Shown in pieces: positions 8,213 through 10,783 of a DNA stretch of 64,000 nucleotides (position 1 is its first letter; every line of letters begins with the position of its first letter). This DNA comes from Thioalkalivibrio sp. K90mix (GTDB taxonomy: Bacteria > Pseudomonadota > Gammaproteobacteria > Ectothiorhodospirales > Ectothiorhodospiraceae), in assembly GCF_000025545.1 (NCBI RefSeq), contig NC_013889.1, positions 2,411,501 to 2,475,500 on the forward strand, written 5' to 3'. Made by a program: the position numbers and the translations under genes. Under the pieces are notes generated by a model. The model was not told the origin of the DNA and did no database searches. It saw only the letters and a list, made by a program, of their open reading frames with translations.

Positions 8213-8904
8213 TGCGCGCGATGATCCTGGCCGCCGGACGCGGCGAGCGCATGCGCCCGCTGACCGACCATTGCCCGAAGCCACTGCTCCCGGTCGCCGG
8301 ACGCCCGCTGATCGCCTACACCCTGGAACGCCTGGCCCGGGCCGGCTACCGCACGGTGGTGATCAACACCGCACACCTGGGCGCACAGATCCGCGAGGCG
8401 CTGGGGGCCGAGTACGCAGGCACGCGACTGTTGTACTCCGAGGAACCGGAGGGGGCGCTGGAAACCGCGGGGGGCATCCGCCAGGCCCTGCCGCTGCTGG
8501 GCGACGGGCCGTTTCTGGTGGTCAATGGCGACGTCTGGTGTGAGCACCCGCTCCACCCTCCCGCCCAACAGCCGCTCGCGGAAAGCGGCCCGCTTGCGCA
8601 CCTGGTGCTGGTGGACAACCCGCCGCACCATCCGCAGGGCGACTTTCGACTGTCCGGCGGGCGGGTATCGCTGGATACCGGCACGCCGCTGACCTTCAGC
8701 GGCATCGGCTGGTATCACCCCGCGCTGTTCGCTGGCCTGCCCGAAGGGCGCCGCCCGCTGGGACCCTTATTGCGCGAGGCCATCGGCGGCGGGCGGGTGA
8801 GCGGAGAGCGCTACAGGGGGGACTGGCGCGACATCGGCACCCCCGAACGCCTCGCGACGCTGGAGGCGGACATCGACCGAAGTCGGGATCACGGCTTGAT
8901 GTAG
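8212..8904 (+). CDS. murU: N-acetylmuramate-1-phosphate uridylyltransferase (sugar nucleotidyltransferase)
   Basis: A 230-residue nucleotidyltransferase with the N-terminal signature [15 protein letters not shown], the sugar-phosphate region [11 protein letters not shown] and the metal site VVNGDVW. It converts MurNAc-1-phosphate and UTP to UDP-MurNAc. The coupling to amgK (TGATG overlap) supports MurU over a mannose-1-phosphate guanylyltransferase, which is the common database label for this fold. The 3' end overlaps the convergent DsrE-family gene by 16 nt. Confidence 0.9.
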
Positions 8905-9377
8905 GTGTAGCCCGCGCGCTGCAGCCGCGTCAGCTCGCCAATGCCCGAGGACACACGGTCCTTGGGCTCGGCATCATGCAGATCGTCCAGCTCGATCCCG
9001 CGCTTGTCCAGGGTGTTGCCGCAGACGAGGAACCGCACATCCTGCATCTTCAGGGTGTCCACAGTACTGCGAAGGTCGGGGTCGTCCTTGGCGTGCTGCA
9101 GCAGACTGACCCCGCCACCGTGCATCACGACCTTGATCTCCAGACGATCCACCGCACTGCCGTCGATATGGTTCTGCAGGTTGCGCAGGGCATTGAGGTG
9201 CAGAGCCGGATCATCGGCATTGATGTGATAGACCACCTGCAGTGTGTCGTCGGCATCAGCGGTCTCGCCGCCGTCTCGCTCGAACGAGAACAGGGCCCAG
9301 GTGACCCCCAGCGACAGTACGAAAAGCGCCCCGGCCAGGAACCAGCCGGGGCGCGCGAGAAACGAGAGGGGGTTCAT
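8889..9377 (-). CDS. Membrane-anchored DsrE-family protein
   Basis: A 162-residue protein. One N-terminal hydrophobic segment (about 12-30) is followed by a DsrE/DsrF-like domain (about 46-162) containing HINADDP, VVMHGGG and FLVCGNTL with a single conserved Cys119, and ending in GYTYIKP. DsrE-fold proteins (TusD, DsrE, DsrE2) carry or transfer sulfane sulfur on a cysteine. The domain is homologous to the C-terminal domain of the next gene upstream, which has FTACTQTL and ends GWIYIKV. Charge and the anchor suggest a periplasmic domain. It is the last gene of the ECF sigma operon, 40 nt after the anti-sigma gene. Confidence 0.82.
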
Positions 9378-9417
9378 CGCCAGGCCGAACCCTCGGGATG
9401 ACCTGCGACTGGCGCGA

Positions 9418-10230
9418 TCATACCTTGATGTAGATCCAGCCTTCGGCCTGACGGCGCGCGGCCTCGGCTACGCCGGAATCGATCCGTTCGGCCTGCGGGA
9501 GGATGTCCACCGTGCCACCCTCCTCGCGGGCCAGACGATCGAGGGTCTGGGTGCAGGCCGTGAAACGCAGGCTCGCATACTCCTGGCTGAGCGCCGCAAC
9601 CCGCTCGGGATACGGAGCCCGGTCCGTGCGCAGGAAATCCATCGCGTTGTTGTGCACCACGACCTGCACGTTCAGCTCGCGACCATCGGCCGCCGCGTCG
9701 CGGTACATCGCCTCGATGTCGTCCAGCAGCTCGGCCATGGATTTCGGGTCGGCCTCGTTGATATGCAGCAGGATCTGGTCAGTCTCGGTCGCCGCGACGA
9801 CCTGCGGCGCGGAACCATCGGCCTGATCGCTACCGGCAATCAGCGCCGTCTCGCCGGCATCACCACCGATCCAGGCGGTTGGTTCGCCACTCCCGAGGAA
9901 TCCGGCATCGCGCGTAATCTCGTAACCCGCCAGGGACCCCAGCACGAGCGCCACCACCCCGGCCGCCATCGACGGGAACCAGTGGGTACGTGATGATCGG
10001 GAGATACGACAGCGTCCGCCGCCTGACTGGGCCGTGGGAAGGTCCTCGTAGGCCATGCCCACCAGCTCCTTGAGCTGGTGCATATCGCAGACCTCTCGGC
10101 TCAGGCGCTCGCTGGAGGAGATCAGCTTCAGTGTATTGAGGCGATCCTCGGGCGAGAATTCGCCATCGACGAACGCATTGAGAATCTCCTCGCTGGGGCG
10201 ATCCTGCGCATTGAGACGGTGTTCAGCCAT
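9418..10230 (-). CDS. Transmembrane anti-sigma factor with C-terminal DsrE domain
   Basis: A 270-residue fusion. Residues 13-62 look like a cytoplasmic anti-sigma domain (ILNAFVDGEFSPEDR ... REVCDMHQLKELV) but lack the HxxxCxxC zinc motif. A basic stretch and one membrane segment (about 87-104) follow, then a linker and a DsrE-like domain (about 151-270) with Cys226 in FTACTQTL. It overlaps the sigma gene by 8 nt, the usual coupling of ECF pairs. I infer that the outer DsrE domain senses a signal, perhaps sulfane sulfur or redox state, and controls release of the sigma factor. The pairing with a sigma gene is seen; the ligand is not. Confidence 0.82.
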   Translation of the reverse strand: MAEHRLNAQDRPSEEILNAFVDGEFSPEDRLNTLKLISSSERLSREVCDMHQLKELVGMAYEDLPTAQSGGGRCRISRSSRTHWFPSMAAGVVALVLGSLAGYEITRDAGFLGSGEPTAWIGGDAGETALIAGSDQADGSAPQVVAATETDQILLHINEADPKSMAELLDDIEAMYRDAAADGRELNVQVVVHNNAMDFLRTDRAPYPERVAALSQEYASLRFTACTQTLDRLAREEGGTVDILPQAERIDSGVAEAARRQAEGWIYIKV

Positions 10231-10783
10231 GCCGATTCCTCACTACCTGAAGATGGGGTCCATCAGCCGCTTGCCCCTGGTCGGCCTGCTGTTCCAACAG
10301 CACCTTTTTCAGTTGCGCCCGAGCCCGGCTCAGGCGGCTCATTACGGTCCCGATCGGCACATCCAGCACCTCCGAGACCTCTGCGTATGCGAACCCCTCC
10401 AGGTCCACGAGCGACACCACCTGTCGATGATCCGCGCTCAACTGCGCCATCGCACGGTGGACATCCGACACCATCCGGTTGCGTTCGGTCTGCATCTCCG
10501 GACAGTCCTCGCAGGGCAGCTCCATGCTGTCCACGTCCACCGTATCCTTCTGCCGCCGTCCCCAGTCCCGGTAGCAGTTGGTCATGATGCGGAACACCCA
10601 GGCCTTCAGGGCGCTCTCGTCCTGCAGCGATTTCAGCCGGGTCAGGGCCTTCATCATCGCTTCCTGCACCAGGTCGTCGGCCAAAGCGGCGTCGTGACAC
10701 CAGGCAAAGGCCATGCGGTACATTTGCGGTCGAAGGTCACAGACCTTCTGGCGCAACCGCCTCTGTGCGAACCAGGTCGCCAT
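10223..10783 (-). CDS. ECF-family RNA polymerase sigma factor
   Basis: A 186-residue group IV sigma factor. Region 2 (about 15-80; DDLVQEAMMKAL, AWVFRIMTNCYRDW) and region 4 (about 108-160; GFAYAEVSEVLDVPIGTVMSRLSRAR) are both complete. The linker between them contains CEDC at 91-94, an unusual cysteine pair. The start follows GGAGG at good spacing. The immediate downstream partner is the transmembrane DsrE anti-sigma factor. A GGAAT-17-CGTCC candidate promoter lies in front, consistent with autoregulation. Confidence 0.93.
   Translation of the reverse strand: MATWFAQRRLRQKVCDLRPQMYRMAFAWCHDAALADDLVQEAMMKALTRLKSLQDESALKAWVFRIMTNCYRDWGRRQKDTVDVDSMELPCEDCPEMQTERNRMVSDVHRAMAQLSADHRQVVSLVDLEGFAYAEVSEVLDVPIGTVMSRLSRARAQLKKVLLEQQADQGQAADGPHLQVVRNRHG

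Follow-up and report, generated by a model that had tools for sequence, protein, structure and literature searches.

Here, we describe a three-gene locus of Thioalkalivibrio sp. K90mix that probably encodes a dedicated switch, in which an extracytoplasmic function (ECF) sigma factor and its anti-sigma factor read periplasmic sulfur at one cysteine, Cys226, and turn on the Sox system of periplasmic thiosulfate oxidation. The locus occupies positions 8889-10783, on the minus strand, of the stretch that was analysed (the window, 64 kb out of a genome that totals 2.985 Mb over two contigs), and its open reading frames (ORFs) encode the ECF sigma factor, the anti-sigma factor and a third protein. 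The architecture of the anti-sigma factor, its DsrE homology, the invariance of Cys226, the conserved promoter, the placement of that promoter before sox genes and the co-occurrence with soxB make it likely that the locus encodes a transmembrane ECF switch that governs sulfur oxidation. The features of the locus are as follows.

10845..10870, minus strand: predicted autoregulatory ECF promoter GGAATA-N16-CGTC upstream of the sigma gene, found with the same spacing at 31 of 31 family loci
10223..10783, minus strand: ECF sigma factor, 186 aa, regions 2 and 4 (PF04542, E 3.9e-13; PF08281, E 4e-15)
9418..10230, minus strand: putative transmembrane anti-sigma factor, 270 aa (ORF, homologue alignment, hydrophobicity)
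10045..10230, minus strand: predicted cytoplasmic sigma-binding-like domain, residues 1-62, with no zinc motif; its L-N-A-F-V-D-G block is invariant in 27 sequences
9925..9981, minus strand: anti-sigma membrane helix, residues 84-102, predicted N-in; the sole hydrophobic window
9421..9795, minus strand: predicted periplasmic DsrE domain of the MTH1491 type, residues 146-270 (1L1S, E 1.3e-13; hhalign against the third protein, E 2.7e-17)
9553..9555, minus strand: codon of Cys226, the sole cysteine of the C-terminal domain
8889..9377, minus strand: third gene, membrane-anchored or secreted DsrE protein, 162 aa (PF02635, E 3.8e-12; 1L1S, E 9.2e-20; hydrophobic segment 14-32)
9021..9023, minus strand: codon of Cys119 of the third protein

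The sigma protein is an ECF sigma factor by its domains, with Sigma70_r2 and Sigma70_r4_2 both above cut-off, and its ORF shares an 8-nt overlap with that of the anti-sigma gene; the ORF coordinates thus confirm the layout described in an initial annotation of this DNA. The survey of synteny proposed there was run, and the sigma gene adjoins the anti-sigma gene at 30 of 30 family loci, with the third gene adjacent at 25 (one of the other five is cut by a contig end). Among the 31 named loci where the anti-sigma factor has a relative, 27 belong to Thioalkalivibrio, the closest ones included, and an ECF sigma gene is also present at 37 of the 38 loci of a wider anti-sigma set. This close company is hard to reconcile with the view that the membrane DsrE protein serves the Sox pathway chiefly as a sulfurtransferase and that its fusion to an anti-sigma-like N-terminus is non-regulatory; DsrE proteins are indeed described as sulfur carriers (PMC4175335), but with the sigma gene so regularly at hand we consider this view barely credible.

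The anti-sigma factor is predicted to span the membrane once, with the N-terminus inside and the C-terminus outside. One hydrophobic segment is present in each of 27 aligned sequences, and lysine and arginine are more frequent before it than after it in 26 of them; the outward orientation given in the initial annotation is further supported by the third proteins, which look secreted in several relatives as judged by eye. Pfam and NCBIfam reported no anti-sigma domain model for this protein, and its residues 1-62 are assigned as sigma-binding-like from the homologue alignment. No Pfam model exceeds its cut-off anywhere in the anti-sigma factor, and the DsrE fold of the C-terminal domain was recognised by profile searches: a profile built from 24 anti-sigma C-termini matches MTH1491 (1L1S) over the whole domain, and hhalign pairs it with the profile of the third proteins at a probability of 98.9%, placing Cys226 over Cys119. 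Cys226 is kept in 27 of 27 aligned relatives, while at 38 of 38 further loci (a set that includes three genes already among the 27) the C-terminal domain has exactly one cysteine, at the Cys226 motif. The DsrE homology, the single membrane helix and the lone cysteine of the outer domain, all read from the sequence in the initial annotation, are borne out.

Cysteine-based control of ECF sigma factors is familiar from the RsrA-type zinc anti-sigma (ZAS) redox sensors. Unlike these, the anti-sigma factor of the window has no HxxxCxxC motif, as judged by eye and as anticipated, and its cysteine would be on the periplasmic side; none of 35 distant relatives has the zinc motif either. Close to the outer domain among known proteins are the MTH1491-type DsrE proteins (1L1S, 2PD2), which share with it the fold by profile, the cysteine column and a Y-I-K/R tail. 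These structures are free-standing, whereas here DsrE is fused to an anti-sigma factor, or exported. Both the anti-sigma factor and the third protein end in Y-I-K, as noted initially. Since MTH1491 ends in Y-I-R-P, the tail characterises the family and does not point to a special link between the two proteins.

The promoter stands before the sigma gene at all the family loci, which establishes the GGAAT-N17-CGTC element of the initial annotation, and the sigma factor is predicted to regulate itself through it. When the motif is extended to GGAATAN16CGTCNTA, exactly one match per genome is obtained in 22 of 30 genomes of the genus and none in the other 8, with none in the reversed control; these matches are the sigma promoters only, and no regulon site was found with the extension. 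Because the extended form finds only the autoregulatory site, the shorter motif GGAATA-N16-CGTC is needed for the regulon and was used in the regulon scan. In 16 genomes it yields 3 to 6 matches each, compared with 0 to 3 in the control. Whole-genome counts fail to separate the genomes, so that only the placement of the motif is informative.

Two kinds of relatives were also observed. Diverged DsrE-anti-sigma proteins with 28-34% identity occur at loci L039, L040, L046 and L047 (genomes G037, G043, G041 and G038, respectively), with a sigma gene adjoining in three of the four. Short stand-alone proteins at L041:5566-5889, L044:4634-4909, L049, L050 and L056 match only the sigma-binding domain, with 39-55% identity, and at the three loci examined (L041, L044 and L050) a GGAATG or GGAATT...CGTC site is found just before the gene. 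It is possible that such proteins serve as a soluble second anti-sigma factor for the same sigma factor.

The placement of the motif points to the Sox system. Models of SoxY, SoxA and SoxB were run in 47 family genomes, and the 500 nt upstream were scanned at the 30 loci listed per gene, a subset of all matches, six contig-edge loci being recomputed; a relaxed motif with GGAAY and a spacer of 16-18 was used in addition to the strict one. In the letter-shuffled window, 0.0003 strict and 0.014 relaxed matches are expected per 500 nt on one strand. In the genus, a strict site precedes soxY at 16 of the 18 loci examined, one further locus has a spacer reduced by one base, and the remaining one, a second soxY copy, is a miss. 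The same fraction, 16 of 18, holds for soxA, where the two misses concern a second gene copy and a locus whose upstream stretch measures 165 nt, and a relaxed site precedes soxB at 18 of 18. In sister genus g2, the anti-sigma factor was found in 0 of 10 genomes, and no site precedes soxY (0/9), soxA (0/6) or soxB (0/6, one of these loci having 68 nt upstream only). In g4, a strict site precedes soxB at 4 of 5 loci.

The recurring sites of the genus precede soxY, soxA, a rhodanese gene and a GAF-GGDEF-EAL gene, and single ones precede, as judged by eye, a ccoN-like gene and a gene for a metallo-beta-lactamase (MBL) fold protein. In the genome of strain K90mix itself, sites are found before soxA, the sigma operon, each of the two soxB genes and soxY, which a soxZ-like gene follows, as well as before the GAF-GGDEF-EAL gene and two adjacent genes for secreted DsrE paralogues. 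At soxB the sequences are GGAACA and GGAATG, and the spacer is one base shorter at one of these two sites and at both DsrE sites. The initial annotation had suggested a link of the locus to sulfur, and the prediction of the Sox system as the regulon makes that link much stronger. The strict site before the GAF-GGDEF-EAL gene is seen in close strains (G000 C1:548842, L111; G018 C1:113210, L112), hinting at a link of sulfur supply to cyclic-di-GMP.

In the wider class, a 27-sequence profile detected the fusion of DsrE to the anti-sigma factor in at least 58 of 369 genomes (the own genome included), belonging to 38 families. A full-length match was one reaching from profile position 15 or lower to 248 or higher among the matches listed, counted by hand; the number is a lower bound, as at most seven candidates were scored per genome, and some genomes called fusion-free may hold the fusion, for example G110, which has a site before soxX. 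At the best 28 loci outside the family (L252-L279), the promoter stands before the sigma gene in 24, and one of the four misses has 67 nt upstream only. In a search of the phylum, 3 of 398 genomes had full-length matches, and all three belong to this class; matches outside it covered the profile only in part. A search of plasmids with the anti-sigma protein yielded 13 records, all matching the DsrE half only.

The fusion is strongly associated with soxB, which was detected (E up to 1e-100) in 57 of the 58 fusion genomes and in 93 of the 311 others (Fisher p 9e-25, shared ancestry ignored). One soxB match, at G293 C1:4401304-4403007, carries two in-frame TGA codons. The regions around soxB were then compared for 55 regions from 54 of the 57 fusion genomes (G171 twice; G000, G019 and G176 left out) and for 45 genomes with no detected fusion, picked among the 93 and about 98% complete or more. 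There are 30 strict sites in 22 of the 55 fusion regions and 2 in 2 of the 45 others, with none in the reversed control of either set; when a spacer one base shorter is also allowed, the numbers become 36 sites in 24 regions and 3 in 3, compared with 1 and 3 in the reversed control. As the regions were picked around soxB, the gene types are expected, and it is the placement just upstream of the starts that counts: 28 of the 30 strict sites are followed, no more than 400 nt downstream, by the start of an ORF resembling SoxB (12), SoxX (8), a YeeE-type transporter (4), SoxY (1) or the sigma factor (3), and two have no such ORF.

In addition, 42 sites were inspected at 40 distant places in 18 genomes, chosen by eye from 100 listed sites, eight of which recur in the soxB regions. 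Sixteen of the 42 precede an ORF like one of nine query proteins, namely SoxB (4), SoxX (4), the sigma factor (2), DsrE (2), MBL (2), YeeE (1) and TusA (1), the TusA and one MBL protein being query proteins themselves. The sigma/anti-sigma pair is located inside the sox cluster in 3 of the 55 fusion regions and in none of the 45 others. For example, the sigma, anti-sigma, soxX, soxA and soxB genes follow one another on one strand at L411, interrupted between soxX and soxA by one unresolved stretch and accompanied by a divergent DsrE-like gene; SoxX, SoxA and SoxB are above the model cut-off there. At two other loci, L430 and L406, soxB is no more than about 2.5 kb away from the pair.

Could the sigma factor regulate only its own operon, the sox sites serving another sigma factor of the same specificity? 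ECF26 sigma factors use the same type of promoter, and several paralogues of the fusion occur in some genomes. However, the sites before sox genes track the presence of the sigma/DsrE-anti-sigma system and match the autoregulatory site in both sequence and spacing, and we therefore regard this explanation as very unlikely.

The third protein is a DsrE protein by the Pfam model and by a profile of 21 such proteins that matches 1L1S. Its Cys119 shares an alignment column with Cys226, in agreement with the initial annotation, and is kept in 23 of 25 sequences, with serine at L023 and L024. The third proteins have a hydrophobic segment near the N-terminus, which looks by eye like a cleavable signal peptide in several relatives. 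Outside the family, a DsrE gene is present within the fetched locus (1.5 kb on each side) at 18 of the 28 distant loci and absent from it at 10, and the DsrE-type ORFs beside the distant anti-sigma genes keep the cysteine in 21 of 22 cases, two of these ORFs (L257 and L258) resembling the C-terminus of a second neighbouring anti-sigma factor. The relay of sulfur from the third protein to the anti-sigma factor that had first been suggested is weakened by the five family loci where the gene is not adjacent, the two serines and the ten distant loci, and such a relay would be optional at best. A role as co-repressor or sulfur buffer would fit equally well.

The own genome also has the two adjacent secreted DsrE paralogues mentioned above (G000 C1:740475-741472; L004 and L005), of 147 and 146 aa with signal peptides as judged by eye. 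Their sites, of the type GGAATAA-N14-CGTC, are located 144 and 117 nt before the start and are one base shorter than the sigma promoter.

These companions suggest another arrangement of the same regulon, in which the DsrE domain of the anti-sigma factor would be a docking module and the free DsrE proteins RseB-like co-repressors in a joint oligomer, with sulfur acting on the free protein or having no part in it. The frequent presence of a DsrE gene beside the anti-sigma gene, the similar promoter of the two further secreted DsrE proteins and the homotrimer described for DsrE3A of M. cuprina (PMC4175335) are consistent with it. On the other hand, the cysteine of the anti-sigma factor is kept more strictly than the companion, being present in 38 of 38 domains even though no DsrE gene was found in the fetched stretch at 10 of 28 distant loci. 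Docking thus seems a possible but tentative explanation.

Known systems resembling the one in the window include the ECF26 pairs, that is, RpoE1/RpoE4 with EcfR of S. meliloti and SigE of Starkeya novella, for which the signal is reported to be sulfite and the outer domain of the anti-sigma factor RsiW-like (PMC6180224, PMC3511301, PMC6527743). As in these accounts, an ECF sigma factor is paired here with a neighbouring single-helix anti-sigma factor, with autoregulation (described for RpoE4), a GGAATA...CGTC promoter and inorganic sulfur oxidation as output; the promoter has the ECF26 form, with -35 GGAATA and -10 GT, when set against the consensus quoted for that group. They differ in the outer domain, the signal and the targets, which are an RsiW-like domain, sulfite and sorT/sorA in the ECF26 reports, whereas the present system has a DsrE outer domain and predicted Sox targets. 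In direct comparisons, the sigma factor of the window is 34% identical to the sole sigma match on the pSymA stretch and 39-40% to two other alphaproteobacterial sigma factors. The pSymA match is presumably RpoE6, going by its position.

The outer domain could sense sulfite, redox state or another ligand in an ECF26-like manner, with no sulfane sulfur carried on it, given that RpoE4 and SigE combine a GGAAT/CGTC promoter with a sulfite response and sulfite oxidation (PMC3511301, PMC6527743, PMC6180224). Against this, the outer domain is of the DsrE kind and not RsiW-like as described for the ECF26 anti-sigma factors, its single cysteine is invariant, and the predicted targets are genes that handle thiosulfate; we consider such a sensor unlikely.

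Several observations weigh against a Cys226 switch that controls the Sox system. The association tests treat genomes as independent of shared ancestry. No strict site was found in 33 of the 55 fusion soxB regions, 26 of the 42 sites at distant places had no ORF like the nine queries, and the motif count in some of those distant genomes is not above the reversed control. Sister genus g2, which lacks the system, has 0 to 8 matches to the short motif per genome. Within the genus, a strict site precedes soxB at just 2 of 18 loci, while in g4 no site precedes soxY (0/2) or soxA (0/5) at the loci examined, and in g3 none precedes soxY, soxA or soxB (0/1 each). The second, diverged copy of the system at L039, L040 and L046 lacks the GGAATA-CGTC promoter. 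Finally, the third gene or its cysteine is sometimes missing, as given above.

The favoured course of events would be as follows. The anti-sigma factor would hold the sigma factor until sulfane sulfur or a thiosulfate-derived group, forming a persulfide or S-thiosulfonate, loads Cys226, either directly, via SoxY or via a companion DsrE protein. The loaded anti-sigma factor would change or be degraded and the sigma factor be freed, which would then use GGAATA-N16-CGTC promoters to transcribe soxYZ, soxA, soxB, its own operon and the genes of the secreted DsrE proteins. We infer Cys226 to be the sensor because it is invariant, because the cysteines of DsrE proteins have known sulfur chemistry and because of the nature of the targets. 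There is a roughly even chance that the system represents an undescribed, widespread class of transmembrane sulfur sensors, in which an exported DsrE domain acting on an ECF sigma factor would carry covalent sulfur on a periplasmic cysteine and turn Sox on with no import of sulfur, secreted DsrE proteins or SoxY being possible carriers.

ECF control of sox genes is itself known. In Arcobacter butzleri, ECF sigma-2 (AB1044/1045) raises the expression of soxCDXYZAB according to mutant evidence (PMC3445524); its reported regulon is broader, including nap, dct and tct genes, and the term DsrE is absent from that paper. In Hyphomicrobium denitrificans, SoxR/sHdrR with SoxT1B are described as controlling sox in response to sulfane sulfur (PMC10451225, PMC12423496, PMC11582611). 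These are ArsR-type repressors with a transporter-like membrane signal protein, whereas here the sensor would be a part of the anti-sigma factor exposed to the periplasm. In the open-licence papers searched, no description of a DsrE anti-sigma factor was found, and no DsrE sensor was met in the searched text on the ECF26 pairs or Arcobacter sigma-2; the initial annotation likewise knew of no described ECF system of this kind. A match to the term DsrE in PMC3511301 was to DsRed. A search of a Thioalkalivibrio transcriptome paper (PMC5744179) met text on sigma-54 and neither an ECF sigma factor nor soxA, and searches of two vent-symbiont papers (PMC7787665, PMC4949241) met only unrelated mentions of sigma. 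What appears new, as far as the searched papers go, is the DsrE sensor on an ECF anti-sigma factor together with the predicted Sox regulon, and not the ECF control of sox or the ECF26 sulfite systems.

The CEDC pair in the linker of the sigma factor had been proposed as a second redox input. The two cysteines are kept in the family, in 29 and 30 of 30 sequences, respectively, but a diverse set of sigma factors has cysteine at each position in just 5 of 37, so that CEDC is a clade trait and was rejected as a general redox input outside the clade. At the other end of the locus, the third gene overlaps a convergent ORF (8212-8904, nucleotidyltransferase-like by eye) by 16 nt at the stop codons (8889-8904).

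SoxR-type repressors act in the cytoplasm. According to the abstract of PMC11582611, it is poorly understood how external sulfur is sensed by the regulators of its oxidation. If our reading is true, the sensor sits where thiosulfate is handled, and it offers a single cysteine to mutate as well as a promoter and a regulon to test. As the fusion is present in at least 58 of the 369 sampled genomes and in 38 families, 57 of these genomes having soxB, the system could be a main regulator of thiosulfate oxidation in the gammaproteobacterial class, and it may be how sulfur oxidisers notice sulfur food outside the cell.

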